Assembly: GCA_947589225.1 (NCBI GenBank)
Contig: CANQBC010000001.1
Coordinates: forward strand, 62,001-126,000
Length of the DNA: 64,000 nt
DNA from: an uncultured Oscillospiraceae bacterium
GTDB lineage: Bacteria; Bacillota; Clostridia; Oscillospirales; Oscillospiraceae
Reading direction: 5' to 3'
Part shown: one piece after another, positions 2,949 through 57,246 of the stretch
Position numbering within the stretch: position 1 is the stretch's first letter
How the letters are laid out: every line of letters begins with the position of its first letter
Made by a program: the position numbers and the translations under genes
The notes under the pieces: generated by a model
Databases searched by the model: none
What the model saw: only the letters and a program-made list of their open reading frames with translations
Told to the model about the DNA's origin: nothing

Positions 2949-2983
2949 ATATCTGAAAAAGGGCGACCCCCTTTTTCAGATAT
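2949..2983. terminator. Hairpin after htrA-like gene, also end hairpin of repeat copy A
   Basis: Two 15-base arms (2949-2963 and 2969-2983, ATATCTGAAAAAGGG and its complement) pair perfectly around a 5-base loop, directly after the htrA-like stop. A-runs and T-runs on the two sides would let it act on either strand. It forms the end hairpin of intergenic repeat copy A. Confidence 0.7.
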
Positions 2984-3050
2984 ATAAAGAGATATGTGCG
3001 GAGACGACCCCTGAATTTTGCGAAATTCAGGGGTCGTCTCCTGCTGTTTT
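2949..3050 (-). repeat. Modular palindromic intergenic element, copy A (partial)
   Basis: This contains the end hairpin (2949-2983), the spacer GTGC, and a perfect 19-bp palindrome with a 4-base loop at 3000-3041 whose core is TGAATTTTGCGAAATTCA. The same core with different outer arms occurs in copies B (5884-5927) and D (45572-45612). The flanking GTGCGG and CTGCTGTTTT are shared with copy D. Modules P1, H2 and H3 found in other copies are absent, so this looks like a partial or decayed copy. Orientation is given relative to copy B. Confidence 0.65.
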
Positions 3051-3066
3051 TAAATGCGCCTCCTCT

Positions 3067-3100
3067 CCCCGCGCGATCGGAGATCGCGTGGGGCTTTTTT
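3067..3100 (+). terminator. Rho-independent terminator
   Basis: CCCCGCGCGATC pairs with GATCGCGTGGGG (11 of 12) around a 3-base loop and is followed by CTTTTTTG on the plus strand. It is a second, stronger plus-strand stop beyond the htrA-like gene. Confidence 0.7.
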
Positions 3101-3238
3101 GTTTCCCTCCGAATGGTACGCGGCGCTTTCATATTCAATGGTGTAAAGAGTGATTTAATTGAAGCGATTTGTGGAAAAAATCGCCTTATACAGGCCGGCT
3201 TTTTCCGCTTTTTCCACAAAAAATATTGAAAAGACGTA

Positions 3239-3267
3239 TTGACAACTTTTTGGCGATACCGTATAAT
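3239..3267 (+). promoter_or_regulatory. Consensus sigma-A promoter of the Cys-rich SLH protein gene
   Basis: TTGACA at 3239-3244 and TATAAT at 3262-3267 are separated by exactly 17 bases. This perfect match predicts strong expression of the gene starting at 3389, with a leader of about 115 bases. Confidence 0.85.
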
Positions 3268-3388
3268 TTTACTGAGCGGGAAGCCCGACCCCGCTGCCCT
3301 TTAAAAGCCAGGATAAGCCTGCCGGCGCGGCCGCTGCGGAAAAGACGCGGACGTGCCGCCCGGCGCGTCCGAAAGGAGGCATTTTGCC

Positions 3389-5728
3389 ATGAAAAAAATC
3401 TTTTACAGGCTTCTGTGCGCGGCACTCTGCGTCATGATGGCGGTGGCCTTTGCCGCTCCACCCGTGACCGCCGCGGCGCCGGGCGGCGAACCGTGTGACC
3501 ACGACTGGGTGGAGAAGTCCAGCCGGGATCACTACAACTGCCAGTTGGGGACGTGCTGGGTTTTCTACAAGGAATGTTCCAAGTGCGGCGCCCAGCAGCA
3601 GATCGCGTTCCGCGAGTACGACGGGTTCAATCTGGGCCAGCACAACTATGTGACCACCACCAGAACTTCCGACTGTCCCTACAACCCCACCATTGAGGAG
3701 CGCTGCTCCATCTGCAACGACACCAAGATCACCCAGGGGGGCCACAAGTGGGTCCAGGACGGGGAGCCTGTCCCCGGTAAGTACTGCACCGACGCGGCGA
3801 CACAGGCGTACAAGTGCGCCGACTGCGGCGCGACCAAGACCGAGCGTACCGGCATCCGCAACGCGCACGTGTTCGAGGATGTGGAGACGACCGCCACCTG
3901 CACCGAGCCGGGCCTTCACCTCAAGCGATGCACCAAGTGCGGCTTTGAGACGGCCCAGACCATCTATCAGTATCCCACCGGGCACAAGTGGGTGAACGGC
4001 GAGGACGGGGATCACACCGTCGGGCGTGTCTGCTCTGTCTGCGGCACCTTCAGCGCCGGCACGGAGCACACCTGGTCTTCGTGGAAGAGCGATTCCGGCG
4101 ACCACTGGGTGGAGTGTACCCAGTGCGGCACCAAGGCCCAGCTGGGCGCTCACAGCTATGTGAACGGCAAGTGCACCGTCTGCGGCGCCGTCAAGGCCAT
4201 CTGCCCCCACAACTGGGAGGTCACCGGATCCTTCGGTGTGCTCAACCACAACGAGAGATGTACCCTGTGCGGAGAGACCCGTTTGGTCTCCTGCGCCTCC
4301 TCCCGCACCCAGCCCCGTACATACTGCACCGACCCCACCTACTGCGTATGCGGCAACAAGGTGAAGGACGGCCAGAAGAACCACAACTTCGGCACCTGGA
4401 TCTGCCACGATTCCACCCATGAGCACAGATGCCTGAATTCAGGCTGCCAATACGGCACCGTGGAGAGTCACAGCTTTGTTACCGTGGCCGGCACGGTCAA
4501 GTGCTCCGTCTGCAGCTTTGTGGACAAGGAGCGATCCGTACCCCATGAGCACACCTTCGGCACCTGGACTGTGGGCGCCAACAACTGCGTGAGCCGCTGC
4601 ACAGATCCCACCTGCGCCGCCATAAAGACCACCGCCCACGTCCTGGGCGCGGCTGACTGCGCCGGAAACGCCGTCTGCAAAAACTGCGGCGCCATTGTAA
4701 AGACCACGGCCAGCCGTTCCCACACCGGCTCCACCGAGATCCGCGGCGTTGTTGCCGCCGAGGTCGGCAAGGCCGGCTACACCGGCGATACCTACTGCCT
4801 GACCTGCGGAAAGATCATTTCGAAGGGCCAGACCATCCCCGCCCTTACCCCCGCCCATGAACACGAGTATGTGATGAAGCACGACTCCACCGCCCACTGG
4901 ACCGAGTGCAGCTGCGGCGACCGTCACGATGTGGCGGAGCACACCTATCAAAACGGGGCCTGCACCGTCTGCGGCCAGAAGGAACCCGTCTCCATGGCGG
5001 AGCACGTCCACAGCTTTTCCGCCACCTTCGTCACCGACAGCGTCAGCCATTGGCACGTCTGCACCGGGTGCGGCGAGGTCACCGAGAAGGAGGAGCACCT
5101 TTTCGTGGATGACAGGTGCGTGTCCTGCGGCATGACCTACGAGAAGTATGAGGTCAAGGAGGCCAGGGAGGAGGCCGCAGCGGATCTTGTGGGAGGCAGC
5201 AATTCTGTCCTCAGGGTATTCGGCGACCTGAGCACCGCCAGCCCCAACGCCTACTACGCTCTGCCCATCCAGCGCCTCTACAACGCCGGGGTCATGAAGG
5301 GCGTCGATAAGAGCACTTTCGGCGGTACAGGCAGCATCAACCGCCTTCAGGTGGAGATCATTCTCGCCCGCATCAGCGGCCAGAACGACGTTTACAATTC
5401 CTGGTCGGAGAACAAAGCGGCCTATATGGAGTGGGCCGCCAAGCACAACATTACCGTTCCGGGGAATGAGGAGGCCGCCGCCTCCCGGCAGGAGACCGTT
5501 TATATGATATGGGTCATATCCGGAAAGCCCCACTCCGAGAACAACATGAGCGCTTTCCCCGATTTTGATGAGGTCAATGACGACTACCAGATGGCCGTGC
5601 GCTGGGCTGTTGAGAAGGGGATCCTCACCGGTTCCGACGGCAAGATCCTTCCCAACGATTCCATCAGACGCATGGATGCCGCCACCCTTTTTGCCCGCTA
5701 CGTTGACGCGGAGAACGTTGTCATTTAA
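3389..5728 (+). CDS. Secreted Cys-rich repeat protein with C-terminal S-layer homology domains
   Basis: A 779-residue exported protein. The start is the ATG at 3389, after AAAGGAGG, rather than an in-frame ATG at 3353. A signal peptide (MKKIFYRLLCAALCVMMAVA, cleavage near AAA) precedes about 550 residues of short repeats of roughly 25-40 residues. These carry 14 exact CxxC pairs (such as CSKCG, CADCG, CTVCG) plus CxC and longer-spaced pairs, separated by His/Trp/Tyr motifs such as H-x-W and H-S-F. They look like zinc-ribbon or rubredoxin-type knuckles on a secreted protein. The last ~180 residues hold SLH repeats (VFGDLSTASPNAYYALPIQR; AFPDFDEVNDDYQMAVRWA) that anchor proteins to secondary cell-wall polymer. 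The repeats could bind metal or form disulfides. The biological role is unknown. Confidence 0.85.
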   Translation: MKKIFYRLLCAALCVMMAVAFAAPPVTAAAPGGEPCDHDWVEKSSRDHYNCQLGTCWVFYKECSKCGAQQQIAFREYDGFNLGQHNYVTTTRTSDCPYNPTIEERCSICNDTKITQGGHKWVQDGEPVPGKYCTDAATQAYKCADCGATKTERTGIRNAHVFEDVETTATCTEPGLHLKRCTKCGFETAQTIYQYPTGHKWVNGEDGDHTVGRVCSVCGTFSAGTEHTWSSWKSDSGDHWVECTQCGTKAQLGAHSYVNGKCTVCGAVKAICPHNWEVTGSFGVLNHNERCTLCGETRLVSCASSRTQPRTYCTDPTYCVCGNKVKDGQKNHNFGTWICHDSTHEHRCLNSGCQYGTVESHSFVTVAGTVKCSVCSFVDKERSVPHEHTFGTWTVGANNCVSRCTDPTCAAIKTTAHVLGAADCAGNAVCKNCGAIVKTTASRSHTGSTEIRGVVAAEVGKAGYTGDTYCLTCGKIISKGQTIPALTPAHEHEYVMKHDSTAHWTECSCGDRHDVAEHTYQNGACTVCGQKEPVSMAEHVHSFSATFVTDSVSHWHVCTGCGEVTEKEEHLFVDDRCVSCGMTYEKYEVKEAREEAAADLVGGSNSVLRVFGDLSTASPNAYYALPIQRLYNAGVMKGVDKSTFGGTGSINRLQVEIILARISGQNDVYNSWSENKAAYMEWAAKHNITVPGNEEAAASRQETVYMIWVISGKPHSENNMSAFPDFDEVNDDYQMAVRWAVEKGILTGSDGKILPNDSIRRMDAATLFARYVDAENVVI

Positions 5729-5748
5729 GTAAATTTAAACAGTCTGAA

Positions 5749-5772
5749 ACGCGGAGCCTTCGGGCTCCGCGT
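5749..5772 (+). terminator. Terminator hairpin after the Cys-rich SLH gene (first copy)
   Basis: GCGGAGCC-TTCG-GGCTCCGC with two more pairs on each side: a 10-bp stem on a TTCG tetraloop, 20 bases after the stop codon. It lacks a T-run and is followed by the repeat box CAGTTTGTC. An identical hairpin recurs at 5977-6000. Confidence 0.6.
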
Positions 5773-5976
5773 CAGTTTGTCAAAAAACTCAAATTGAGTA
5801 TTTTTTCCGGCGGCATGTACGTCGGAAAAAATACCTTTTGTCGCCCAAGTGCGCCCCAAAGGGGCGCGCGCAGGGCGACGGTAGGGAAACTCCGCGTGAA
5901 TTTCGCAAAATTCACGCGGAGTTTCCCGCACGTTCCCCTTTGTCGGAAAAGGCCAAAGGCCTTTTTCGACACGCTA

Positions 5977-6007
5977 ACGCGGAGCCTTCGGGCTCCGCGT
6001 TTTTTTG
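5977..6007 (+). terminator. Terminator hairpin with T-run (second copy)
   Basis: The same 24 bases as 5749-5772, here followed by TTTTTTT, so this copy has the full intrinsic-terminator form. It was probably the original terminator of the upstream gene before element B arrived (inference). Confidence 0.75.
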
Positions 6008-6291
6008 CTTTCGGGAGGGGGCGGATGGCCGTGCGCGGGCGGCGCGGGGGGATAATCTCCTGTCCGGCGGCCATAAGGAATGTGGAGCAGGCATGTTCCC
6101 GGAGCCGTTTTGGGCAAACAAAGGCGCGGGACGGCCGGAAAAAACCTTTGGGGGGTTATGAGGACGCGGATGGCGGTAAACGGGGAGAAAGGGGGCTTTT
6201 ATGGCGGCCCTTTGCGGAGCGGCAAATACGCGCGTTGCACGTCTTTGCGGAAAGTGGTTAAAAAATGACAAATGAATGTCTCATTATTGCA
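6008..6291. other. No gene recognised
   Basis: GC-rich at the left and AT-rich toward 6265. Open frames cross it on both strands, but none has a convincing ribosome binding site or recognisable protein, and they overlap the repeat element. I see nothing coding here. Confidence 0.6.
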
Positions 6292-6320
6292 TTGATTTTT
6301 GTTCAGAGTGATGATAAAAT
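6292..6320 (+). promoter_or_regulatory. Probable promoter of the metallophosphoesterase gene
   Basis: TTGATT (6292-6297), 17 bases, TAAAAT (6315-6320), about 55 bases upstream of the start at 6375, in a locally AT-rich stretch. Confidence 0.55.
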
Positions 6321-6374
6321 TATAATCAGCCTATACCATATTTTAGCCCTCAGGGCAAAGAAAGAGGAGATCTT

Positions 6375-8447
6375 ATGAAAAAGGCAAAGGTATTGACAGC
6401 GATCCTGTGTATTCTTGCTCTGCTGCTGACCGGCTGTCAGGGTACCGGAAATCCCTCCGGCGGGGATCAGACGGATGGCCCGGGGACACAGGGCACCACC
6501 CCGCCGGAAACAGGGGACAAGGATCCCGAACCCGCTCCTCCCACGGCTCCCGCGGTCACGTTGTCGTATAGCTTCTCGGGTGACGACGCGGCCACGGCGG
6601 GCTTTGCCGAGGGAACGATCACCCTTTCCTCGGAGAAGGACGGCGACTACAGGCTCTTCTGGAGCGATGACAGCGGCGCGCTTCAGGGCTATTATGAAAT
6701 AGCGTCGCTGGAGGTCAAGGCGGGCGGCAGCGCCGAGACCGCCCTTGGCTACCACACGGCCATTCCCGCTGACGCCACAAAGGTGATCGCCGCCGCGGGA
6801 GACAGCGAGTATCCCACGGTCGCTGAGGCCGCCGCCGTATTTGACATTCCCGCCGAGAAGCAGCTGGGCCACAGATCCGGCGAAGAGCTTTACACCTTTA
6901 ACTCCTTCTCGGATATCCACATCGACGAGGAGCACATCGGTGAGACGCCGGCTTTCTACTGGGTCTACTCCGAGGCCCATTGGGCCAAGGCCCTGGAATA
7001 CGCCGTCTCCAAGGGGGTGGACTTTATCGTCTCCTCCGGCGACCAGGTCACCAACGCCAAGCTCGCCACTTTGGACAAGGAGTGGCAGGCGTACCAGTAC
7101 ATACTCTCCCAGTCCGACTATGTCAACCCCATCTATGAGTCCGGCGGGAACCACGAGGTCCGTCAGGACGGCGCGGTCGCCGATGAGCTTCAGGCGTTTG
7201 TTACCGGCAGCGGTCTTGACAGCTCCATCGACACGCTCACCGAGGCGAAGCCCTACTACTACATGACTGAACCCAACACCGGCGATCTCTTTATATTCAT
7301 GGCGCTTGAAGGCGGATACCGCCCCGCCCAGTACGACGAGTTTACCGATGAACAGCTTGACTGGGTGGAGGGACTTCTTGACGAATACTACGGCAAGGGC
7401 AAGAACGTTTACATCATCCAGCACGGCCTTATCAAGGGCTACGGCCCGGGCGACGACCTGGAGACCCCCTACTACGGCGGCGCTGTGGATCCCGAGCTCC
7501 CCTCGGCCCAGAGATTTATCTCTATCCTCGAGGCACACCCCGACCTCATCTGGATCTCCGGCCACTCCCACGAGGACTTCACTCTGGGCTACAACTTTAC
7601 CAACAACAACGGTGAATCCTGCTACATGATACACAACCCCTCCGTGGGCAACCCCACCCATGTGACAGACGACGCCATTGACTACACCTTCTATGAGGAC
7701 AATTCCCAGGGCTACTTTGTCCAGGTGTTTGACAACGCCATTGTATTCAGCGGCGCGAACCTGGTCTACGGCAAGATATTCCCCGCCTATTCCTACATAA
7801 TCCCCGGTGAGACATCCCTTCAGGATCGGGAGGAGGAGCAGGAGGTCAACTTTATCGACGTGACCGCCGACGCCCCCACCCTCAGATCCGTCCTGGCCAA
7901 TGCCAAGACCATTCTGGGCATCTACTATGAGTATAGCTCCTATGACCAGTACCAGGCCCTGAAAAGCTGCTATTACCAGTACAAGGACATGGACGCCGAC
8001 GCCATGAGCGCCGGGGAGCTTCAGACGGCATACAGCCGCCTTCGCCTGGCCATCGCCTATCTCCATCAGGTAGTTGAATTCACCAACGGCCGTGAGTTCG
8101 AGGTCGTCATCCCTGAGCCGGAACCGGAAGTGACGCAGCGAGAGAAGGATCTGCTGGTGAGGATCCACTACCACAGGGAGGACGGCGATTATGAGCCGTG
8201 GAGCGTGTGGCTGTGGGGTACCGGCGACGGAACCGACAACCCCTTCACCGGCACCGATGACTTCGGCGTGTACCTTGAGTACACCGTTGCCCCGGACGTC
8301 ACGTCACTGGGCTTCATTGTCAGGACTGAGAGCTGGAGCAAGGATGTGGATGCCGACCAGTTTATAAACGTTGACGGCTCTGTCACCGCAGATACGCTGG
8401 ATGTATTTATTGAATCCGGCGTGGAGGGCTACGAGGTTCGAGACTAA
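6375..8447 (+). CDS. Metallophosphoesterase lipoprotein with C-terminal pullulanase-associated (starch-binding) domain
   Basis: A 690-residue exported lipoprotein. The signal peptide ends in the lipobox LLTGC (Cys near 22), followed by a Pro/Gly/Asp-rich linker and a beta-rich module (about 55-165). The calcineurin-like phosphoesterase domain shows metal-ligand motifs in order: D180-x-H182 (SDIHID), GD at 223 (SSGDQ), GNHE at 258-261, H350 and GHSH at 396-399. Residues 592-690 match a pullulanase-associated/CBM41-type domain (VRIHYHREDGDYEPWSVWLW, then GFIVRTESWSKDVDADQFI). This is known as a starch-binding module on pullulanases and is unexpected on a phosphoesterase. SD AAAGAGGAG precedes the ATG. 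The substrate is unknown. The nearby glucan operon suggests action at the surface on glucan-associated phosphate, which is inference only. Confidence 0.88.
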   Translation: MKKAKVLTAILCILALLLTGCQGTGNPSGGDQTDGPGTQGTTPPETGDKDPEPAPPTAPAVTLSYSFSGDDAATAGFAEGTITLSSEKDGDYRLFWSDDSGALQGYYEIASLEVKAGGSAETALGYHTAIPADATKVIAAAGDSEYPTVAEAAAVFDIPAEKQLGHRSGEELYTFNSFSDIHIDEEHIGETPAFYWVYSEAHWAKALEYAVSKGVDFIVSSGDQVTNAKLATLDKEWQAYQYILSQSDYVNPIYESGGNHEVRQDGAVADELQAFVTGSGLDSSIDTLTEAKPYYYMTEPNTGDLFIFMALEGGYRPAQYDEFTDEQLDWVEGLLDEYYGKGKNVYIIQHGLIKGYGPGDDLETPYYGGAVDPELPSAQRFISILEAHPDLIWISGHSHEDFTLGYNFTNNNGESCYMIHNPSVGNPTHVTDDAIDYTFYEDNSQGYFVQVFDNAIVFSGANLVYGKIFPAYSYIIPGETSLQDREEEQEVNFIDVTADAPTLRSVLANAKTILGIYYEYSSYDQYQALKSCYYQYKDMDADAMSAGELQTAYSRLRLAIAYLHQVVEFTNGREFEVVIPEPEPEVTQREKDLLVRIHYHREDGDYEPWSVWLWGTGDGTDNPFTGTDDFGVYLEYTVAPDVTSLGFIVRTESWSKDVDADQFINVDGSVTADTLDVFIESGVEGYEVRD

Positions 8448-8648
8448 AAGATAAAGAAGTGACGCGGAAATGATGCCGTGTAAAAAAGCGCTGAAGCCGT
8501 TCCGCGCGGCGCTGTAAAACATGGCTGATTCCCGCGACGGCCTGATCGCCGGAGCGATATCATCCCCGCCGAAAGGGCATAGACGAATATGGAGGCTGCC
8601 GCCGGCTTCTGCAGGGGGCAGCCTGCGTTCGTTGCCGGAGGGTATTTT
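8448..8648. other. Leader of the AraC-type regulator gene, no gene
   Basis: An 8-bp hairpin (AGGCTGCC at 8593-8600 with GGCAGCCT at 8617-8624) lies 25 bases before the regulator start. There is no T-run, so it is more likely a leader structure than a terminator. I see nothing else. Confidence 0.35.
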
Positions 8649-9485
8649 ATGAAATGCACGTATGAGTTTGTAAGGTACGACAAGAACATTCCTGGGAAAA
8701 TCCTGCCGCAGGATAAGCCCGGATGGCGGTGCAGCACCACGCCGCACTGGCACCCGGAGCTGGAGTTTGTCTATGTCTTTGAAGGCGATATCCGGCTGAC
8801 GCGGGCGGGAAAAACGCGGGACGTCCATCCCGGCGAGTTTTACTTTTGCGACAGCGGAGTCATACACTCCACCACGGCCATGAACAACACGGCGCATTAC
8901 CGATACATCGTTCTTCTCCTGTCCCGCGAGGAGCTTTTGCGCTTTCATGAGGACTGTACCTTTGAGATACCTCCGGGGGAGCCATACGAAATTCTGGGGG
9001 AGAGACTGAGACATCTTATGTGGCTGGAGGAGAACTCCGGCTGCCTCCCCTTCAACATCGACATCGAAAAAAACCGGACGATACTCGATATTCTTCAGAT
9101 CCTGGTGTCCCGGTGCGTCTGTGCCTCCTCCTGGGATCTTGAGGGGGGTGTGGAGAAAAACGGTTACGCCAGAAGGGTGATGGAGTACGTCCGTCAGAAT
9201 TATGCGCAGCCGCTGACCTTGCCCGTGGTTGCCAACGAGGTCGGTTTGTCGCCCCAGTATTTGGCGAAATGCTTTAAAAAAGCTACGGGACTTGGAATAA
9301 TGCAGTTTATAAACCGTATACGGCTTGATTCCGCCAACGGGGAGCTCCTTGACGACAATACGACCATAGCCGGAATTGCCCAAGAGAACGGATTTCCCAA
9401 CGTAAAGTCCTACATCAAGCTTTGCCGGGAGACTTACGGTATGACGCCCTCCGAGTTTCGCAGGGCCATGCGCGGCGAGGCGTGA
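8649..9485 (+). CDS. AraC-family transcriptional regulator with cupin sensor domain
   Basis: A 278-residue regulator. The ATG at 8649 follows GGAGGG at the right spacing; an upstream in-frame ATG at 8589 has no such site. The N-terminal cupin (about 20-100) carries WHPELEFVYVFEGDIRLT and HPGEFYFCDSGVIHS, a fold that usually senses a sugar. The C-terminal pair of helix-turn-helix motifs (about 175-275) reads YVRQNYAQPLTLPVVANEVG ... QYLAKCFKKATG ... IAGIAQENGFPNVKSYIKLC, ending in the AraC signature (YGMTPSEFRR). It sits between two carbohydrate loci. A role in controlling the downstream monosaccharide transporter or its own neighbours is plausible but not shown by any visible operator. Confidence 0.92.
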   Translation: MKCTYEFVRYDKNIPGKILPQDKPGWRCSTTPHWHPELEFVYVFEGDIRLTRAGKTRDVHPGEFYFCDSGVIHSTTAMNNTAHYRYIVLLLSREELLRFHEDCTFEIPPGEPYEILGERLRHLMWLEENSGCLPFNIDIEKNRTILDILQILVSRCVCASSWDLEGGVEKNGYARRVMEYVRQNYAQPLTLPVVANEVGLSPQYLAKCFKKATGLGIMQFINRIRLDSANGELLDDNTTIAGIAQENGFPNVKSYIKLCRETYGMTPSEFRRAMRGEA

Positions 9486-21095: not shown

Positions 21096-21147
21096 AGTTT
21101 GTCAACGGCTTTTGAAAGGGCCTGGGGCGGCTGCCCCAGGCCCTTTC
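21096..21147 (+). terminator. Terminator of the glucan operon, with repeat-family box upstream
   Basis: A perfect 15-bp stem (GAAAGGGCCTGGGGC, 21114-21128, with 21133-21147) on a GGCT loop, but no T-run after it. The preceding AGTTTGTCAACGG (21097-21109) matches the junction of module H3 in intergenic repeat copy C. This may therefore be a short remnant (F) of the same element next to a terminator. Confidence 0.6.
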
Positions 21148-26577: not shown

Positions 26578-26605
26578 AAAGGCCGGTTCCGAAGAACCGG
26601 CCTTT
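26578..26605 (-). terminator. Terminator hairpin, distal copy of element C
   Basis: GGCCGGTTC-CGAA-GAACCGGCC with AAA and TTT on either side. It is identical to the hairpin at 26786-26814 and symmetrical, so it could work on either strand. Confidence 0.6.
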
Positions 26606-26785: not shown

Positions 26786-26814
26786 AAGGCCGGTTCCGAA
26801 GAACCGGCCTTTTT
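26786..26814 (-). terminator. Terminator of pnp, proximal copy of element C
   Basis: The same GGCCGGTTC/GAACCGGCC stem directly after the pnp stop (26829). The T-run on the plus strand is five long; on the minus strand only TT follows, then the repeat box. Confidence 0.6.
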
Positions 26815-44340: not shown

Positions 44341-45525
44341 ATGACTGAATTTGAACTGAAATACGGCTGCAACCCCAACCAGAAGCCGTCCAAAATATTC
44401 ATGCGCTCCGGCGCGGAGCTGCCTTTAGAGGTTCTGAACGGCCGGCCGGGGTATATAAACTTTTTGGACGCCCTCAACTCCTGGCAGCTGGTTCGGGAGC
44501 TGAAGCGCGAGACGGGCCTCCCCGCCGCCGCCAGCTTCAAGCACGTCTCGCCCGCCGGGGCCGCCGTGGGCAATCCGCTCAGCGACGAGCTGAAGGCCGC
44601 CTGCTTCGTGCGGGACATTCAGGGCCTTGACGATTCGCCCCTGGCCTGCGCCTACGCCCGCGCCCGGGGCACCGACCGCATGAGCAGCTTCGGCGACTGG
44701 ATCGCCCTTAGCGACATCTGTGACACCACCACAGCCAGGATCATCAAGCGGGAGGTCTCCGACGGCGTCATCGCCCCCGGCTACACCCCCGAGGCGCTGG
44801 AGATCCTATCCGCCAAGAAAAAGGGCGGCTACAACGTGGTGAAGATCGACGCCGGCTACGTGCCCGAGCATGAGGAGACCAAGGAGGTCTTTGGCGTCAC
44901 CTTCTCCCAGGGACGGAACGATTTCAAGATCGACTACGAGCTTTTGAAAAACGTGGTGACGAAGAATAAGGACATCCCGGAGAGCGCGAAGCGGGATCTG
45001 GTGATCTCCCTCATCACCCTCAAATACACCCAGTCCAACTCCGTCTGCTACGCCTCCGACGGACAGGCCATCGGCGTGGGCGCCGGCCAGCAGAGCCGCA
45101 TCCACTGCACGCGCCTGGCGGGCGGAAAGGCCGACACCTGGCATCTGAGGCAGTCCCAGCGCGTCCTGGAGCTGCCCTTCCTGAAGGGCCTGGGGAGAGC
45201 CGACCGGGACAACGTTATCGACGGCTTCATCAATCATAACGAGGAGGACGTCACCGCCGACGGCGTCTGGCAGCGCTACTTCACCGAGCGGCCCCGGTAT
45301 TTCTCCGCCGAGGAGCAGAGGGCGTATCTCGATAAGATCACCGGCGTCAGCCTCGGCTCCGACGCCTTCTTCCCCTTCGGCGACAACGTGGAGCGGGCGC
45401 ACAAGAGCGGCGTTCTGTACATCGCCGAGCCGGGCGGTTCCGTCCGGGACGACAACGTCATCGAGGTGGCGGACAAGTACGGCATGGCCATGGCGTTTAC
45501 AGGTATGAGGCTATTCCACCACTGA
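44341..45525 (+). CDS. Stand-alone AICAR formyltransferase (PurH transformylase domain only)
   Basis: 394 residues. It transfers formyl from 10-formyl-THF to AICAR. The ATG at 44341 (MTEFELKYGCNPNQKPSKIF) has GTGAGGTGC upstream. YGCNPNQKP, AASFKHVSPAGAAVG, TQSNSVCYASDGQAIGVGAG with QQSRIHC, and SDAFFPFGDNVERA match the C-terminal domain of PurH. The N-terminal IMP cyclohydrolase domain is entirely missing, and its job is done by the preceding PurO. Standalone forms have been called PurV. Its codons and spacing fit the operon. Confidence 0.93.
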   Translation: MTEFELKYGCNPNQKPSKIFMRSGAELPLEVLNGRPGYINFLDALNSWQLVRELKRETGLPAAASFKHVSPAGAAVGNPLSDELKAACFVRDIQGLDDSPLACAYARARGTDRMSSFGDWIALSDICDTTTARIIKREVSDGVIAPGYTPEALEILSAKKKGGYNVVKIDAGYVPEHEETKEVFGVTFSQGRNDFKIDYELLKNVVTKNKDIPESAKRDLVISLITLKYTQSNSVCYASDGQAIGVGAGQQSRIHCTRLAGGKADTWHLRQSQRVLELPFLKGLGRADRDNVIDGFINHNEEDVTADGVWQRYFTERPRYFSAEEQRAYLDKITGVSLGSDAFFPFGDNVERAHKSGVLYIAEPGGSVRDDNVIEVADKYGMAMAFTGMRLFHH

Positions 45526-45531
45526 TCTGGC

Positions 45532-45701
45532 TTGAAAGGGCTGCGCCCTTTCAATGCCAAGGAGAACGTGCGGAAAAATTATCTGAATTTTGCTAAATTT
45601 AGATAATTTTCCCTGCTGTTTTGCTCCATGCACGGCCCGCAGGGCCGCACACTCCGCAAAACAAGAGGGATTTTTTCCAAGGCTCATGTCCTTGGAAAAA
45701 T
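45532..45701 (-). repeat. Modular palindromic intergenic element, copy D
   Basis: It lies inside the purine operon, right after the AICAR formyltransferase stop. On the plus strand: H1 (45532-45554, TTGAAAGGGC with GCCCTTTCAA); GAACGTGC (as in B); palindrome P2 (45572-45612, core TGAATTTTGCTAAATTTA); CTGC; H2 (45617-45663, with CATGCAC and CACACTCC as in copy C); and P1 (45670-45701, TTTTTTCCAAGG arms around CTCATGT). Orientation is opposite to copy B. It probably lowers or splits transcription before purD. Confidence 0.72.
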
Positions 45702-45742
45702 GATTTAATTTAAGGATATTGTTTATGCTTTTGGAGGGGCTT

Positions 45743-50862: not shown

Positions 50863-50897
50863 TATTACATAATGAGTAAAATATTAGAGGTTATCTT

Positions 50898-52253
50898 ATG
50901 AAAGAGAACAAGATGGGCGTCATGCCGGTGGGGAAGCTTCTTATCACCATGTCCCTGCCCATGATGGCATCCATGCTGGTGCAGGCGCTCTATAACATTG
51001 TGGACAGCGTTTTTGTCAGCCGTGTTTCAGAAAACGCCCTGACGGCGGTGTCCCTGGCTTTTCCCATTCAGACGCTGATCGTCGCCTTTGCCAACGGCGT
51101 GGGCGTGGGCATGAACGCTCTGCTGTCCCGGGCGCTGGGGGAGAAGCGGCCTGATGAGGCCAACAAGGTCGCCCGTCACGGTGTGATCCTGATGGCGGCG
51201 TCCTACGTCCTGTTCCTGCTGTTCGGCATGTTCCTGACCCGTCCCTTCATGGCGACCCAGGTCACGGCGGACACCGACCCGGAGATCTTGGAATATGGCG
51301 TCCAGTACCTCTCCATCGCCTGTATTTTTTCCTTCGGCATTTTCGGCCAGATACTGTCCGAGCGCCTTTTTCAGTCCACTGGCCGCACGGTCTACTCCAT
51401 GGTGACCCAGGCGACCGGCGCGGTGATCAATATTATCCTGGATCCCATCATGATCTTTGGCCTTTTGGGCTTCCCACGCATGGAGGCCGCCGGCGCGGCT
51501 GTGGCCACCGTCATCGGCCAAATAACGGCCGCGATTCTGGGCGCGGCGCTGAATTACTTCTGCAACCGGGAGATAAAACTTGAGATAAAGCGCCTCTTTG
51601 AGATCGACATGGGCGTTATAAAGCATATGCTCCTCATTGGTATACCCACGACGGTCATGCAGGCCATCGGCTCGGTGATGAGCTATGTGATGAACCGCAT
51701 CCTCATGGCCTTCTCATCCACCGCCGCGGCGGTGTTCGGGGCGTATTTCAAGGTCCAGTCCTTTGTATGTATGCCCGTGTTCGGCCTTAACGCGGGGATG
51801 GTGCCGATCATCGCCTACAACTACGGCGCGAGGAGTCGGGATAGGATCGACCGGTGCGTTAAGCAGAGCATCCTCATCGCTGAGCTCATAACGGCAATCG
51901 GCTTTGCGGTCTTTCAGCTCATGCCGGACAAGCTGCTGGGCTTTTTCGACGCCTCCGAATATATGCTCCAGATCGGCGTTCCGGCGCTCCGCATCATCTC
52001 CATCCACTTTTTGATGTGCGGCGCGTGCATCGTCATCGGCTCCGTCTTTCAGGCCCTGGGGAACGGGATGTACTCCGCCATTGTGTCCTTCCTGCGCCAG
52101 ATCGTGGTGCTGCTGCCTGTGGCGTATATCTTCTCGAAGGTATTCGGCCTCTCGGCTGTCTGGTGGTGTTTCCCCATAGCCGAGTCCGTGTCTCTTACCG
52201 TCTCACTCATACTTTTAAGGCGTATATACAAAAACCTGGTCAACAAATTGTGA
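50898..52253 (+). CDS. MATE family efflux transporter, MepA-like
   Basis: 451 residues with about twelve membrane helices in two similar halves. KLLITMSLPMMASMLVQALY and NIVDSVFVSRVSENALTAVS form the typical MATE N-terminus. The second half repeats the pattern (LLIGIPTTVMQAIGSVMSYV; VFGAYFKVQSFVCMPVFGLN; MVPIIAYNYGARSRDRIDRC). MepA-type pumps export drugs or cationic metabolites using a Na+ or H+ gradient; the substrate here is unknown. AGAGGTTATCTT precedes the ATG. The DUF975 gene starts 17 bases after the stop and may be co-transcribed. Confidence 0.93.
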   Translation: MKENKMGVMPVGKLLITMSLPMMASMLVQALYNIVDSVFVSRVSENALTAVSLAFPIQTLIVAFANGVGVGMNALLSRALGEKRPDEANKVARHGVILMAASYVLFLLFGMFLTRPFMATQVTADTDPEILEYGVQYLSIACIFSFGIFGQILSERLFQSTGRTVYSMVTQATGAVINIILDPIMIFGLLGFPRMEAAGAAVATVIGQITAAILGAALNYFCNREIKLEIKRLFEIDMGVIKHMLLIGIPTTVMQAIGSVMSYVMNRILMAFSSTAAAVFGAYFKVQSFVCMPVFGLNAGMVPIIAYNYGARSRDRIDRCVKQSILIAELITAIGFAVFQLMPDKLLGFFDASEYMLQIGVPALRIISIHFLMCGACIVIGSVFQALGNGMYSAIVSFLRQIVVLLPVAYIFSKVFGLSAVWWCFPIAESVSLTVSLILLRRIYKNLVNKL

Positions 52254-52270
52254 GGAAAGGAGAACCCTCC

Positions 52271-53071
52271 ATGTATTCCACTTCCCGTGAATTGAAGCAC
52301 ACCGCAAAAACCCGAATTCGGGAACGCCTGTTCCCCATGATGGCGATCGCCGCGATCTTCATATTGGCGGACTATCTGATCGGCTACTTCTCCAGTGAGC
52401 TTTCGGGTTACAACGACTGGATGAGGGAGATAAACAGGCTTATCTCCACATACGCCGGAGAGATCCAGGCGGCGGTCAACGATCCGACGGAGCTTCAGGC
52501 CATCCTGCTGCGCATTTACGCCGCCATGCCCACTTTCCCGGATTTCATTTCCGGCAGGAGCCTTGTGGGGCCGCTCCTTTCGGTGCTGGTGTCGCTGATG
52601 AGCTACCCCCTTGCGGCCGGCTATGCCCACCATATCCTCGTTGAAAGCCGCCGGCAGAACACCAATGCGGGCTTTCTGATGCACGGCTTTAAGGTGACCT
52701 TCAAGGCCGTTGCCATCGGCGTGCTTACCGGCCTTCTCACCGGGCTGGGGCTGGTGCTGTTCGTGATCCCCGGTTTTATCCTGTCTCTGCGCTACTCCCA
52801 GGCTGTTTTCATTCTGATGGACGACCCGGACAAGGGCCCCATCCAGTGCATGAGGGAGTCGGGGCGGCTAATGCGCGGCAGGAAGTGGGATCTTTTCAAG
52901 CTATATTTCTCCTTCCTTCTCTGGCTCATCGTCTCAAACCTGGTGACCGCCCTCATCGGCGCGCCGGTGCTGAACATCTACCTGACCCCCTATATAAACC
53001 TCGCCGCCGCATTCTTCTACAATGAACTTGTACACCATGAGGATCCCGGCCCCGAGCCGATAGAGATGTAA
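52271..53071 (+). CDS. DUF975 family membrane protein
   Basis: 266 residues. The ATG at 52271 follows GGAAAGGAGA; upstream in-frame codons lie inside the MATE gene. The N-terminus has the family's charged helix (MYSTSRELKHTAKTRIRERL), then about five or six membrane helices. AAGYAHHILVESRRQNTNAG, VIPGFILSLRYSQAVFILMD and CMRESGRLMRGRKWDLFKLY are the conserved DUF975 segments. The function is unknown. Confidence 0.85.
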   Translation: MYSTSRELKHTAKTRIRERLFPMMAIAAIFILADYLIGYFSSELSGYNDWMREINRLISTYAGEIQAAVNDPTELQAILLRIYAAMPTFPDFISGRSLVGPLLSVLVSLMSYPLAAGYAHHILVESRRQNTNAGFLMHGFKVTFKAVAIGVLTGLLTGLGLVLFVIPGFILSLRYSQAVFILMDDPDKGPIQCMRESGRLMRGRKWDLFKLYFSFLLWLIVSNLVTALIGAPVLNIYLTPYINLAAAFFYNELVHHEDPGPEPIEM

Positions 53072-53092
53072 AAACCACTAAGCCTGGAGAAG

Positions 53093-53989
53093 ATGATAGA
53101 GATGAAAAAAATCAAAAGTCCGATCAAAATATACCTGGTATGTATTTTTGTCGTATGTTATGGACTGGGGATACTTGAACTTCTGGACGGGACAGGCAGA
53201 TTTTATAATTTTCTGGGCGTTGCGTTCACTTTTCTGCCTGTTGTGATCGCTTTTCTTACACGGCGCGTTACAGAGCGGCGCGCGAGGTTTAAGCTGTCCT
53301 TAAGAGTCTGGAAAAATCCAAAGGCATGGCTGTTTTCCGCGTTTGTTCCCGGGGTGCTGATCGCGTTGGGAGCCGCCCTGTATTTTATTATTTTTCCCAC
53401 CGAATACAGTGGAGTGTTTCATTATGGGGCTCTGCTGAAAACAGACGCCGAGGCAACAATAGGAAGTCCCGCGCTTTTTGGAACGGCGTGCGTTTGCGCG
53501 GCCGCCCTGCTGATCCCGGTTCAGTTGCTTGAACTGGGGGAAGAAATTGGCTGGCGCGGATATCTCCTTGGCTTTCAGATAGAAAAATACGGTAAGAAAA
53601 AAGCGGTGCTGATTAATGGGATCGAGTGGGGACTGGCCCATCTTCCTTTGATCTACTTTGGATTCAATTACAGTTTGAATAATCCGGGGGCCCCTTGGTC
53701 TAATATGGCCATGATGATGGTGACGTGCGTCGTGCTTGGCGTTCTGTTTTCTTACATTACCATACAAACCGGTAATTGTATGTATGCGGCGATCATGCAC
53801 GGTGTTGTAAATGTTATCGGTGAGCTGCCCGTATATTTGACATACGAATTGGAGAGCGGCCTCCTGGGGCCGAATCCCACCGGACTTGTTGCGATATCCC
53901 TGCTTGGGATACTTTCCGTTGCGCTTTTTATTAAGCTGGACAGCTCGCGACAAATTCCCGCCTGTCAGGGAGAAGCAAAAACCCTTTAG
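53093..53989 (+). CDS. CPBP-family intramembrane metalloprotease
   Basis: About 298 residues; ATG at 53093 or 53102 (GGAGA sits 2 or 11 bases upstream, so both are possible). Eight or so membrane segments. The CPBP/Abi motifs are EEIGWRGYLL (Glu-Glu and Arg), then EWGLAHLPLIYFGFN (His) and MHGVVNVIGE (His-Asn), which form the metal site of this glutamic/metallo intramembrane protease family. Roles include bacteriocin self-immunity and prenyl-protein processing. Codon use is more AT-rich than in neighbouring genes (many AAT, ATA, TTT codons), hinting at recent acquisition. Confidence 0.88.
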   Translation: MIEMKKIKSPIKIYLVCIFVVCYGLGILELLDGTGRFYNFLGVAFTFLPVVIAFLTRRVTERRARFKLSLRVWKNPKAWLFSAFVPGVLIALGAALYFIIFPTEYSGVFHYGALLKTDAEATIGSPALFGTACVCAAALLIPVQLLELGEEIGWRGYLLGFQIEKYGKKKAVLINGIEWGLAHLPLIYFGFNYSLNNPGAPWSNMAMMMVTCVVLGVLFSYITIQTGNCMYAAIMHGVVNVIGELPVYLTYELESGLLGPNPTGLVAISLLGILSVALFIKLDSSRQIPACQGEAKTL

Positions 53990-54397
53990 GAATAAAATTG
54001 CTTACCTCCATACAAAGTCTCGCGGCCATGATTCGTGCGCTCGGAGGGTTCTCTGGCAGCAGAAGGCCAGCCTCCGGGGGGATCCTTTCGCCGCTTCAGC
54101 GGCTGACCAACGGATGCGAAGGTCGCGTTTTGTACATCGTCAAACGGGAAGTCCGCCGCGCGTCTTTCTCTGCTGGACGAGCCGGAAAACCGAATACCGG
54201 AAACCAGACCGCCCCGCACCGGCTCCCAGGTGAAAAGACGGCGGCTTTTTCAGAAAGAGAAGGATGGTATGGCTGCCGCCGTACCATCCTTCTACGCTTA
54301 TCCCGCGATTCAATAATCGCGGGAGTAATACCAATTTAATTAAAAGAATTTTACAGACGCCCGCCGTTAGTCCGGGCGGCGGAATTGATTTTATCGG
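53990..54397. other. Structured intergenic region, no convincing gene
   Basis: The left part (53996-54230) is GC-rich with small self-complementary stretches and reads open in several frames without a start site. Two perfect hairpins follow: AGAAGGATGGTA (54258-54269) with TACCATCCTTCT (54282-54293), and TCCCGCGATT-CAAT-AATCGCGGGA (54301-54324), then TAATACC. The style is like the 111-bp units near 62 kb. It may be a repeat remnant or an RNA. The second hairpin could terminate the convergent CPBP and M23 genes. Confidence 0.45.
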
Positions 54398-55447
54398 TTA
54401 TCCCTTCTGAAGCTCGCCCGTCATGCGGGGGAGGGGATTGACAGGCGTGGAGCCGTCGGGGCGGATCTCAAAGTGAAGGTGGGAGCCGGTGACCACGCCG
54501 GTGCGGCCCATCTTCCCTATGAGCTGGCCCTGGGCCACCTTTTCGCCCTCCTCCACAAGGATCTCCTGCAGATGGCCGTAGTATGTGACGGAACCGTCGT
54601 CGTGCCGTATTTTTATGAGGTTTCCGTACCCGCTGGAACTGCGCTGAGCGTATATGACCGTCCCGCCGTCGGCCGCGACGATGTCGGTTCCGTCGGAGTT
54701 GGCGATGTCGAGCCCCTGGTGGTTCGAGGAGCCCACTTTCACGCTGCGTCCGCCGAAGCCCGAACTGATGACGCCCGTGGTGGGCCAGATATAAAAGCCC
54801 TTTGAGTCGGTCCTGGAGCCGGGAAGCGCCCCCTGGGAGATCACCTCGTCTACAACGGGGGCCGTGACAATGGTGTACTTGAGCGTCTCAAGAATGGGTT
54901 CCCCGTCGCGCAAAATGACGCTGTATGTGTTGACCTGCTCACCGTCCCGCCCCTTTTGCAAGAGCTCCACCTCGTCGGAATAGCCGTCCTCCACCAGCAC
55001 GGTCTCGGTGGCGTAGGGAACAGACTCGGTTCTGCGCCACGTCTCCTGAGTGAGAACCGTCAACGGCGCGTTTCCCTCCTTGGGATCCAGAAGCGCAAGG
55101 GCGTCCTCCGCGTCCATAATCTCGTCCTCTCTCACCTGGCAGGGCTCAACGCTTACGGTCTTAGAGAACGCCGCCACCTCGGTGGCGGGGGTGGAGGCCC
55201 TTTTCAGTATGGTGTCAAGCACCGCCTGGGCCTCCTCCCCGGAGGCCAGCACAACGGCGCGTTCCCCGTCAATCATCACGGCGCAGCCCTCCACGGTGGA
55301 GGCCTCCCCGAGCTCCGCCCGCGCGGTGAGGAGTCCGGGGGACACGGTGAGCAGGGAAAGTCCCAGCCCCGCCGTGGCAAGACACGTCAGCAGCCGCACC
55401 CTTTTCACGGGAGTTGTAAGCTTTTCGGCACGTTTTTTTAAAAACAT
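54398..55447 (-). CDS. M23 peptidoglycan endopeptidase with G5 domain
   Basis: 349 residues. The ATG at 55447 (MFLKKRAEKLTTPVKRVRLL) follows AAGGAGA; longer upstream frames lack a site. A membrane/signal segment (about 20-45, LLTCLATAGLGLSLLTVSPG) is followed by a helical part, a G5 domain (WRRTESVPYATETVLVEDGY ... LEGEQ-like VNTYSVILRDGEPI, about 150-230) and a LytM/M23 domain (about 245-340). Zinc ligands: His and Asp in NHQGLDIAN and His in HLHFEI. It cleaves cross-bridges in the wall or, in sporulation, between mother cell and forespore. Divergent from yabP, so a sporulation role is possible but not shown. Confidence 0.92.
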   Translation of the reverse strand: MFLKKRAEKLTTPVKRVRLLTCLATAGLGLSLLTVSPGLLTARAELGEASTVEGCAVMIDGERAVVLASGEEAQAVLDTILKRASTPATEVAAFSKTVSVEPCQVREDEIMDAEDALALLDPKEGNAPLTVLTQETWRRTESVPYATETVLVEDGYSDEVELLQKGRDGEQVNTYSVILRDGEPILETLKYTIVTAPVVDEVISQGALPGSRTDSKGFYIWPTTGVISSGFGGRSVKVGSSNHQGLDIANSDGTDIVAADGGTVIYAQRSSSGYGNLIKIRHDDGSVTYYGHLQEILVEEGEKVAQGQLIGKMGRTGVVTGSHLHFEIRPDGSTPVNPLPRMTGELQKG

Positions 55448-55567
55448 GAAGAATGTCTCCTTGAAATTAAAAAAAGTTACAATCGAGTTACAAAAAGTAA
55501 CGAAACGTAATATACACCTTTTCAGGATACTTGTCAACACCCTCGACAGAAAGCAGTAAAAAAAGTC

Positions 55568-55596
55568 AAATATTCCTCCCGCCAAGTCAGTAGAAT
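55568..55596 (+). promoter_or_regulatory. Possible sigma-E-type promoter of yabP
   Basis: AAATATT (55568-55574), 14 bases, AGTAGAAT (55589-55596): six of seven and five of eight matches to the mother-cell sigma-E consensus at its usual spacing. Weak on its own; it is listed because yabP and yabQ are sigma-E genes in Bacillus. Confidence 0.3.
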
Positions 55597-55647
55597 TAAG
55601 AGTACAGGCCGCGAGGGGCCGGAATTCAAATTGAGAGGAGGAGGCGC

Positions 55648-55935
55648 ATGGCGATGGAGGAGAGACGCCCCATACCTGAGGCCGCTCACAGCCTGAGTCT
55701 GGATGGGAGAAGGAGGCTGCTTGTTTCGGGGGTCACGGATGTGGAGAGCTTCAACGAGCAGGAGGTCATAATGGGTACCACCATGGGAACGCTCACCGTC
55801 CACGGGGAGGATATTCACATGGAAAAGCTCAGCGTGGACAGCGGCGACGTGGTGGTGACGGGGGAGATAATTGCCCTTGAGTACGAGGATGCGCCGGTGA
55901 AGGGCGAGGGCTTTTTTGCACGGCTTTTCAGGTGA
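55648..55935 (+). CDS. yabP: Sporulation protein YabP
   Basis: 95 residues. RPIPEAAHSLSLDGRRRLLV, GVTDVESFNEQEVIMGTTMG and LHVxGEDIHMEKLSVDSGDV-like sequence are the YabP signature. YabP is an inner-coat protein made in the mother cell and required for spore formation. GAGAGGAGGAGG precedes the ATG. yabQ starts three bases after the stop. The usual upstream gene hslR/yabO is not here; an M23 peptidase gene is divergent instead. Confidence 0.95.
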   Translation: MAMEERRPIPEAAHSLSLDGRRRLLVSGVTDVESFNEQEVIMGTTMGTLTVHGEDIHMEKLSVDSGDVVVTGEIIALEYEDAPVKGEGFFARLFR

Positions 55936-55938
55936 GAG

Positions 55939-56610
55939 ATGCAGGTATCGATCACATCACAAGCCGCAGAGGCGGGGGTGTCGCTTCTTATTGGCATATT
56001 CGCCGGGGTGCTCTACGATTTTCTGCGGGTAATAAGGCGTTCGGTGAGATCAAAGGCCGTGACGCTCATCTCTGACGGGCTTTTCTGGCTCGTCTGCGCC
56101 GCGCTGCTCTTTGCTCTAGGTCTGTCGGCCGGGGGAGGACGTCAGAGCATCTTTATCCAGGCAATGGCGGCGCTTGGCGCGGCGTTGTATTTTCTCACCG
56201 TGAGTCCCCTGGTTTTGGAGTTTGGGGCATTTATATCGGCCATAATAGGCCGAGCCTTGGCGATCTTTGCCGTCCCCATAAGGTTTATGGTAGAGATTTT
56301 GAAAAAAATTAGACGAATTTTAAAAAAAAGCTTTTCATCCGCGACGAAATGGTTTAAAATAGAAGGAACAAAAAAACGGCGCCGGACTGCGCCTGAAACG
56401 GGGACGGAAGATCATGCGGTTAAGACGTACAGGTATACTTACGAAGATAGTGCTGGCGGTGCTTCTGGTATACGTGCTGGTAACGAAGATCGGCCAGTCG
56501 GATCTCCAGAATCAAAAAGCAAGGGAGCTTCAGGAGTTGAAGGACTACGAAGCGCAGCTCGCCGCCGAGGTGGACGACATGCAGTACGCCGTGGAGCACA
56601 GCACAGATGA
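55939..56610 (+). CDS. yabQ: Sporulation protein YabQ, with out-of-frame C-terminal extension over divIC
   Basis: 223 residues as read. About 1-130 is real YabQ: SITSQAAEAGVSLLIGIFAG with VLYDFLRVIRR, then helices to AVPIRFMVEILKKIRRILKK. From about 150 the sequence turns low-complexity, basic and Gly/Ser/Arg-rich because it reads through divIC in another frame (197 bases shared). YabQ in Clostridia often ends near 130-160. It could be a genuine long overlap or a lost stop codon. YabQ is a mother-cell membrane protein needed for cortex and coat formation. Confidence 0.88.
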   Translation: MQVSITSQAAEAGVSLLIGIFAGVLYDFLRVIRRSVRSKAVTLISDGLFWLVCAALLFALGLSAGGGRQSIFIQAMAALGAALYFLTVSPLVLEFGAFISAIIGRALAIFAVPIRFMVEILKKIRRILKKSFSSATKWFKIEGTKKRRRTAPETGTEDHAVKTYRYTYEDSAGGASGIRAGNEDRPVGSPESKSKGASGVEGLRSAARRRGGRHAVRRGAQHR

Positions 56611-56683
56611 GGATGTTCTCAGGGACATCGCCCGTGAGCAGGGCTTCACCGATCCCGACGAACAGGTATATTACGCGGGCTGA
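56414..56683 (+). CDS. divIC: Septum formation initiator family protein (DivIC/FtsB-like)
   Basis: 89 residues. A short basic cytoplasmic start (MRLRRTGILTK), one membrane helix (IVLAVLLVYVLVTKIG), a coiled coil (SDLQNQKARELQELKDYEAQ and on), and the conserved end DVLRDIAREQGFTDPDEQVY. DivIC bridges FtsL and DivIB in the division complex. It sits in the yabP-yabQ-divIC-yabR order of Bacillus. The start lies inside yabQ, in another frame, after ACGGGGACGGAAGATC, which is a poor ribosome site, so expression may depend on coupling with yabQ. Confidence 0.93.
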   Translation: MRLRRTGILTKIVLAVLLVYVLVTKIGQSDLQNQKARELQELKDYEAQLAAEVDDMQYAVEHSTDEDVLRDIAREQGFTDPDEQVYYAG

Positions 56684-56703
56684 CCGCTAAAGAGAGGTAA
56701 TAC

Positions 56704-57144
56704 ATGGACATTCAAAAGGGAGAGGTGCTGACGGGTAAGGTCACCGGCATCACCAAATTCGGCGCGTTCGTGCAGCTCGCGCCGGGGAAATCGGGCCTTG
56801 TGTATATCTCGGAGATCGCCAATACCTTTGTTTCCAATGTGGCGGATTTTCTGCAGGTTGGACAAGAGGTTCGGGTCAAGGTTGTCAGCATTGATGAGCA
56901 GGGCAGGATAAATCTGTCCATAAAGCAGGCCCAGCCCCGTCCGGAGACACCAAAGACCCCGCGTCCGTCGTCCCGCCCCCCCGTGTCCGCCCGCCAGCCC
57001 GAGCATTACGCCGCCGTCCAGACCGAAGGGCCGGTGGACTTGGACTTTGAGGACAAGCTTAAGCGCTTTATGAAGGACTCGGAGAGCAAGATTTCCGACG
57101 CCATGCGCAAGACCGAGCGGGGAAGCTCAAAAAGAAGAAGATAA
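56704..57144 (+). CDS. yabR: S1 RNA-binding domain protein, YabR-like
   Basis: 146 residues. The S1 domain (about 5-75: [53 protein letters not shown]) is followed by a Pro-rich linker and a basic C-terminus ([17 protein letters not shown] ... SSKRRR). YabR proteins bind RNA, and relatives associate with ribosomes (general stress protein 13). AAAGAGAGG precedes the ATG. It ends the cluster. Terminator and repeat copy E follow. Confidence 0.93.
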
Positions 57145-57145
57145 A

Positions 57146-57246
57146 CCAAAGGCCGGGACCGCGTAAGCGGTCCCGGCCTTACAGTTTGTCAAAAAACTCA
57201 AATTCAAATATTTTTTCCAAGGACATGTGCCTTGGAAAAAATCCCT
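57146..57246 (+). repeat. Modular palindromic intergenic element, copy E (partial)
   Basis: H1 (57149-57180, AAGGCCGGGACCGC with GCGGTCCCGGCCTT, GTAA loop) works as the yabR terminator. The box CAGTTTGTCAAAAAACTC (57182-57199) is identical to copy B over 20 bases or more. P1 (57210-57242, ATTTTTTCCAAGG with CCTTGGAAAAAAT, loop ACATGTG) is perfect, with different arms from B and C. Modules H2, P2, H3 and the second H1 are absent. It lies between convergent yabR and the malic enzyme gene. Confidence 0.72.

Follow-up and report, generated by a model that had tools for sequence, protein, structure and literature searches.

A mosaic element with folded hairpin modules and IS1182-type ends in genomes of Oscillospiraceae

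What kind of element leaves the same string of hairpins in several intergenic spaces of one genome, with stem arms that differ from copy to copy while their pairing is kept? The question is raised by a 64,000-nucleotide stretch of an uncultured Oscillospiraceae bacterium (positions 62,001–126,000 of contig CANQBC010000001.1, here the window), in which a sequence-only reading had described five copies, A to E, of an element built from hairpin and palindrome modules named H1, P1, H2, P2 and H3. All five lie where that reading had placed them and are matched by the covariance model R1; B and E are on the forward strand and A, C and D on the reverse strand, and the common order of modules agrees once each copy is read on its own strand. 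The modules are unevenly shared, though: B is complete and D retains the whole core, A is a relic, E keeps the left end and P1, and C lacks P2 (Table 1). As set out below, the element is best read from its ends and flanks as a miniature inverted-repeat transposable element (MITE) moved by transposases of the IS1182 family of insertion sequences (IS), and its interior is likely to be under selection for folding.

The element starts with CAGNNTGTC(A/G)AAAAA and finishes with the inverted repeat of the same sequence, which gives ends of 15 nt. Pairing of left- and right-end profiles among the loci examined (L numbers) yields 152 distinct copies, identical copies being counted once and the set from named records overlapping that from genomes of the genus. 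Sixty copies have both terminal repeats with up to three mismatches each, and 34 of these two-ended copies have a repeated flank, as against 2 of 400 shuffled flank pairs, whose 99th percentile served as threshold. The flank repeats are better matched as direct repeats in 30 cases and as inverted repeats in 4 (L193, L118, L012 and L009), where the duplicated host hairpins agree better with one of them inverted. Since the inner 32 nt of the flanks have mean folding energies (−16.7 kcal/mol on the left and −15.7 kcal/mol on the right) well below that of shuffled letters (−6.1 kcal/mol), the flanks are read as hairpins. H1, previously taken for a module of the element, differs between copies and is alike at both ends within a copy; judged by these flanks it lies outside the element and represents a terminator-like hairpin of the host that was duplicated when the element inserted. 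Consistent with this, the left hairpin of copy B is followed by no T-run and the right one is, as expected from one terminator split and duplicated. Some targets are gene-end palindromes rather than terminators (L174). Insertion can also duplicate a coding end, as at L261, where the final codons and the stop codon of a gene (about 26 nt) stand in nearly identical form on either side of the element. Duplicated hairpins also occur farther afield: L256, of another genus, has them together with both terminal repeats, L260 and L264, of other genera, with a clear right repeat, and L263, from a different family within the order, with a clear left one.

As the ends suggested an IS1182-type partner, the DUF772 domain (PF05598) was searched for and found in 16 of 34 genus genomes, namely, by hand count, 15 of the 25 that bear the element and 1 of the 9 without it. 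The perfect end motif stands on both sides in 5 of 30 DUF772 loci (L199, L201, L202, L203 and L211), in IS elements about 1.5 kb long. A second IS1182 type, 1,648 bp long and present in two copies (L195 and L196), has the ends CAGTCTGTCGACAAA and CAGACTGTAGACAAA; the left end of copy C is exactly CAGACTGTAGACAAA, and this copy belongs to a second element type resembling that of other genera. One copy elsewhere in the window's own genome (L047, G000:C14) is chimeric, with the left end of the first IS1182 end type and a right end like the second. Seven of eight IS copies inspected are flanked by copies of a hairpin of 21–31 nt, the exception being L204 (989 bp), and all three transposases scanned match NF033551 (IS1182) above its cut-off, at 1e-113 to 1e-131. 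Because the 15-nt ends and the whole-hairpin duplication are common to the element and the IS1182 transposons of the genus, the element is best read as a MITE that these transposases would move.

This reading has a close counterpart in IS1272, a member of the same transposase family. For IS1272, insertion into hairpins, terminators among them, has been reported to proceed without duplication (PMC4923244), and stem-loop replacement has been proposed for it, the legend of the model figure adding a branch in which the stem-loop is duplicated (PMC5678879, Fig. 13). Both systems share a preference for hairpins, often terminators, with little regard to primary sequence (PMC5678879, PMC4923244). In the covered sections of these accounts, however, the IS1272 target is replaced or partly deleted without duplication, whereas here both IS and MITE duplicate whole hairpins, and a MITE with folded modules is absent from those same sections.

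Comparison of related genomes shows presence and absence of the element, as well as replacement of its modules, at sites that align as orthologous. An all-against-all comparison of flanks gave 35 pairs with both flanks, from which four empty-site candidates and nine sets of presumed occupied orthologues, eight of them readable, were aligned. The clearest empty site is L111, which holds one hairpin where L137 holds the element between two copies of AAAGCCGCCCGGATCCGTCCGGGCGGCTTT, with flanks 86 and 94% identical. L174, occupied, and L143, empty, have flanks 93 and 92% identical and differ by a duplicated gene end that holds a palindrome. Comparisons of L115 with L105/L170 and of L019 with L122 agree at lower identity, the last with a hairpin on one side only. 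The earlier suggestion of a small mobile element is thus borne out by terminal repeats, flank duplication and empty sites in relatives. The pair L004/L154, a candidate by its flanks, was rejected as orthologous when it did not align as one.

At occupied sites, H2 and P2 both differ in six orthologue sets (L179/L093, L173/L084, L171/L149, L114/L187, L030/L082 and L005/L087), H2 alone differs in L164/L089 and P2 partly differs in L057/L008. Flanks of about 90% identity or more on both sides are confined to L179/L093 (97 and 92%), L173/L084 (98 and 96%) and L164/L089; at the more distant sets, independent insertions may also account for the difference. In the first two of these close pairs, H2 and P2 have been swapped whole, and the new arms still match. 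L179/L093 is the clearest case: the left end, P1 and an unusual H3 are common to both copies, and the H2–P2 block between them is exchanged with its arms still matching, which is whole-module replacement and not stepwise compensation. Elsewhere in the core, L084 and L164 carry two tandem H3-type hairpins, each preceded by an ACGT-T-CCC-like stretch, in contrast to the single one of the orthologous copy.

Could the core instead belong to the host, as a class of regulatory or terminator RNA at gene ends that IS ends have spread only secondarily? Gene context speaks for this explanation. Among the 99 of 152 copies flanked on either side by a called gene no more than 600 nt away (53 were dropped, and the gene caller was home-made), the gene on the H3 side runs towards the element in 83 (p about 4e-12), so that H3 faces its 3′ end; measured from the H3 side to the called stop, the median distance is −1 nt where the left repeat is missing and 28 nt where it is present. 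Convergent gene ends surround the element in 53 of the 99 contexts, as against 5 of 47 window intervals. Promoter-like sites (two or fewer mismatches) occur in 6 of 66 same-strand contexts, where 0.75 would be expected, and the core is kept in many copies that lack the left terminal repeat. That orthologous sites may be occupied or empty, and that modules are swapped there, nevertheless fits poorly with a conserved function of each locus, and the upstream gene is on the strand of the element in only 66 of 99 contexts; a host RNA class is in our estimation an improbable account of the whole. A leader with TTGACA-17-TATAAT before P1 is common to four copies of one genome (L187, L185, L088 and L157 in CANROC), from which a few copies may be independent RNA genes.

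The interior itself bears the marks of a conserved fold. For P2, 137 modules in context reduce to 108 distinct ones, after modules of other lengths, C-starting modules and one reverse-strand match were dropped. With G.T counted, 97.7% of the 17 arm positions are paired in them, compared with 65.6% when arms of different copies are combined; 99 of the 108 hairpins pair at 16 of 17 positions or better, and all 11 arm clusters pair within themselves while no cross-combination pairs. The loop CGCA is exactly centred in 91 of the 108, and entropy is 0.1–0.3 bits in the loop against 1.5–1.8 bits in mid-arm, the part of the arm adjoining the loop being also partly conserved. A P1–H2–P2 alignment of 48 copies, picked for diversity among 97 cores, comprises 43 pairs, of which 28 have both sides changed in some copy, and 97.4% of its cells are paired. 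Two-sided cells number 328, whereas shuffling gives 88.6 ± 8.0 and sliding of the partners no more than 100; the excess is tempered by the fact that the shuffled controls do not preserve relatedness between copies. P1 is nearly invariant in this alignment because it served to find many of the copies. In the A–P1–H2 alignment, 25 of 34 pairs are changed on both sides, P1 included (a raw count; 19/21 cores, 17 from other genera); P1 thus varies in other genera, though those copies were found with R1. Copy B folds at −117.8 kcal/mol (z = −12.0). Loop conservation and covariation together argue for selection on folding of the interior, which on this comparative evidence is likely. The sequence-only reading went further in two respects: it took the changing arms for compensation, which they are, although between sites they partly reflect replacement of whole modules rather than slow point compensation, and it held that the pattern means selection on folded RNA or single-stranded DNA, which is probable rather than proved.

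A mutational process, intrastrand template switching, could also keep arms matched and would dispense with selection. Whole modules do change together, and in 4 of 34 duplications one of the two host hairpins has its loop inverted, so that palindrome-driven change does happen here. Such a process leaves unexplained why the loops of the element are its most conserved parts while mid-arms vary, and why one-sided changes are common among close copies, which also show two-sided point changes (196 one-sided against 134 two-sided among P2 pairs, which are non-independent). We therefore regard template switching as a distinctly unlikely substitute for selection on folding. In many copies (L009, L010, L012–L014, L016, L018, L019, L027 and L029) the apical loop of H2 also holds another repeat nested within it, GGGGTCCCC-hairpin-GGGGAGAGGAGGAGCG...GAGGTTAAGCGGC...; by eye this repeat, too, seems to vary in matching arms, and a relic-like stretch of it lies at 3058–3090 of the window.

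The balance of G.T over A.C at paired columns, read on the strand on which the element runs forward, is 196 to 13 and 76 to 4, which suggests that this predicted fold forms on the forward strand. The excess comes mainly from conserved wobbles in H2 and P1 (columns 15/27, 56/92, 58/90 and 59/89 of alignment A1).

Taken together, the evidence makes it probable that the element is a non-autonomous MITE moved in trans by IS1182 transposases, targeted to hairpins and with interior modules kept by selection on folding. Several observations weigh on the other side. No flank repeat above threshold is present in 26 of the 60 two-ended copies, and the left end is absent in many copies; loss of one hairpin copy, or insertion without duplication, must therefore also occur. 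Neither PF13751 nor PF05598 is matched in G000, the draft of the window's own genome, where the mobilising gene is thus not seen. The folded core is not inside the IS1182 copies, as judged by R1 and R2 on eight IS loci, so it is not needed for their transposition; each model gives one weak match there (27.5 and 18 bits), in L201 and located past the end of the IS or right at it. As for the strand, the structures behind the G.T count were themselves predictions for the forward strand, a choice that favours columns with G.T, and most of the excess stems from few conserved columns; once repeats are collapsed by position and context, a raw 52 to 23 in P2 alone becomes 27 to 22 (p = 0.57). Upstream genes on the opposite strand account for 33 of 99 contexts, and promoter-like sites are found in 0 of these 33, with 0.8 expected. 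On the promoter counts in the 66 same-strand and 33 opposite-strand contexts, an own promoter was rejected as a general feature. The R1 match in L201 (2788–2883) lies just past the right end of the IS, adjoining the duplicated hairpin, and is possibly a relic of the element.

The element is abundant and widely, if unevenly, distributed. A DNA query with copy B finds 93 matching pieces in G000 and matches 25 of the 34 genus genomes, and R1 gives 108 matches in G000 at E<=0.01, some of which represent both strands of one place. Named records contain at least 116 stretches with the P1 pattern, a set in which conservation of P1 is biased, P1 being the search pattern. Its carriers among the matches listed include metagenome-assembled genomes of Oscillospiraceae, Pseudoflavonifractor gallinarum, a Lawsonibacter, an Oscillibacter, a Dysosmobacter and Candidatus Faecivivens; one locus, L180, is labelled Acetatifactor and may be misbinned. 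The cultured strain P. gallinarum DSM 107456 bears an element of the A–P1–H2 type. At E<=0.001, R1 matches 96 of 200 family genomes and, in agreement with the expectation that a covariance model would find further copies in relatives, 64 of 106 sampled genera, with at most 77 bits outside the genus; since these palindromes also match on the reverse strand, in G000 with scores up to about 49 bits, the family tally is an upper reading. Among 27 family loci inspected from R1 matches, 25 show P1 and H2 (L230 and L249 have no visible match in the stretch examined), 19 show an A-like hairpin by eye, and P2 is not seen. With R2 at E<=1e-5, matches come from 25 of the 245 order genomes, spread over the home family and three more (f3, f7 and f13), with a single marginal one in a fourth other family (f19); among 249 phylum genomes there are 2 with a match, and these too belong to the home family. 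In these model searches the number of matches scored per genome has an upper limit. A viral collection yields two exact pattern matches.

Among known systems, Rfam families resemble the element in having covarying structure, but the window has no Rfam match at gathering thresholds and ten loci have nothing relevant at E<=1, in keeping with the earlier statement that no named family fits. The literature searched, which covered few subscription journals, contains no recognised description of it, and the host names are absent from the main text of three structured-RNA surveys, whose supplementary lists were outside the search. One of these, of the human microbiome, reports 250 palindromic candidates, 230 of them predicted terminators (PMC8040213); its main text lacks the host names searched for, and overlap through its supplementary list, outside the search, is possible. 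Bacterial interspersed mosaic elements (BIMEs), formed from repetitive extragenic palindromic (REP) sequences, are likewise high-copy intergenic palindromes combined as mosaics (PMC2817692), although they consist of short palindromes and not of a fixed string of modules. The BOX elements of Streptococcus pneumoniae offer another likeness, by description and not by sequence: they are modular small mobile repeats with folded modules, in another host and with other modules. REP and BIME sequences have other ends, another transposase and another target than the present element. Mobilisation as REP/BIME-like single-stranded DNA by a Y1 transposase (REP-associated tyrosine transposase, RAYT, or IS200-like), for which hairpins with fixed apices and PF01797 in 18 of 34 genus genomes might speak, is very improbable. 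The element has inverted repeats at its ends and duplicates hairpins, both as IS1182 does; PF01797 is unmatched in G000 (on which Y1/RAYT was disfavoured as driver) and present in two genomes without the element by DNA query (G004 and G005); and the orientation of copies shows no preference for the majority coding strand, an approximate proxy for the direction of replication (26 of the 60 loci at which one strand clearly predominates).

Table 1. Copies of the element in the window, with their modules and flanking host hairpins.
Feature	Positions	Strand	Evidence
Copy A, relic: H3-like hairpin (about 2949–2983) and P2 (3000–3041)	2949–3041	−	R1, 44.2 bits
Copy B, left-hand copy of host terminator-like hairpin (24 nt), not followed by a T-run	5749–5772	+	Flank test (L001)
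Copy B, complete element, 204 bp, CAGTTTGTCAAAAAA to TTTTTCGACACGCTA	5773–5976	+	Fold z −12; R1, 153.5 bits
Copy B, P1, loop GCATGTA	5798–5834	+	Alignment, covariation
Copy B, H2, outer stem GTCGCCC/GGGCGAC	5840–5879	+	Alignment, covariation
Copy B, P2, loop CGCA	5884–5927	+	Arm pairing, covariation, loop entropy
Copy B, linker, conserved GCACGTTCCCC	5928–5938	+	Alignment
Copy B, H3, terminator-like, holding most of the right terminal repeat	5941–5971	+	Fold
Copy B, right duplicate of host hairpin, then T-run	5977–6000	+	Flank test
Possible relic, TAGTTTGTCAACGGC then hairpin	21096–21147	+	No model match
Copy C, duplicated host hairpin, 27 nt, at right end of element	26579–26605	−	Sequence
Copy C, element of A–P1–H2–H3 type, without P2	26606–26785	−	R1, 50.5 bits
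Copy C, duplicated host hairpin at left end of element	26786–26812	−	Sequence
Copy D, whole core (H3, P2, H2, P1), without left terminal repeat	45526–45705	−	R1, 123.8 bits
Copy E, host hairpin adjoining left end	57149–57180	+	Sequence
Copy E, truncated: left terminal repeat and P1 only	57182–57246	+	R1, 34.8 bits

Copy D directly follows a stop codon (45523–45525), and the possible relic, in which R1 gives no match, has a start like a terminal repeat and a hairpin. Near the end of the window, three tandem units of 111 bp (62074–62406) have in or beside them the palindrome TATAATATCCGCTATGCGGATATTATA (62164–62190 and 62275–62301, with a variant at 62386–62412), which is also the duplicated target hairpin of an element copy elsewhere in the genome (L003).

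The element is best regarded as a mosaic MITE, of a known kind, with a structure-constrained core. The course of events that we propose starts from a MITE of about 200 bp, or 300–400 bp with nested inserts, that would belong to the bacterial order of the host genome and would be moved in trans by IS1182-family transposases with the same 15-nt ends, as ends and target suggest. As flanks and an empty site show, it inserts at a hairpin, often terminator-like, and commonly duplicates the whole of it; termination need not be lost, the element bringing a terminator-like H3 of its own. Its interior would consist of hairpin modules selected for the folding of a single strand, most probably RNA in the neighbourhood of gene ends, with fixed apices that may serve as binding motifs for a putative partner. 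Modules are exchanged as entire units at a site; the probable route is gene conversion between copies, acting through the conserved stretches of P1 and GCACGTTCCCC. Tentatively, and with less confidence than in the MITE itself, we consider that the IS1182 ends might be the vehicle of an order-wide class of structured RNA, present at dozens of gene ends per genome, in which the apices would form a genome-wide address for a putative trans-acting partner, the arms would be free to vary and modules would be exchanged whole.

The element adds to the Oscillospiraceae, and to sampled relatives in the order, a high-copy folded element for which the searches found no name. Its flanks supply evidence from nature that relatives of IS1182 duplicate whole target hairpins, which was one proposed branch of the IS1272 model, and replacement of modules at sites with 92–98% identical flanks makes the evolution of covarying hairpins directly testable.

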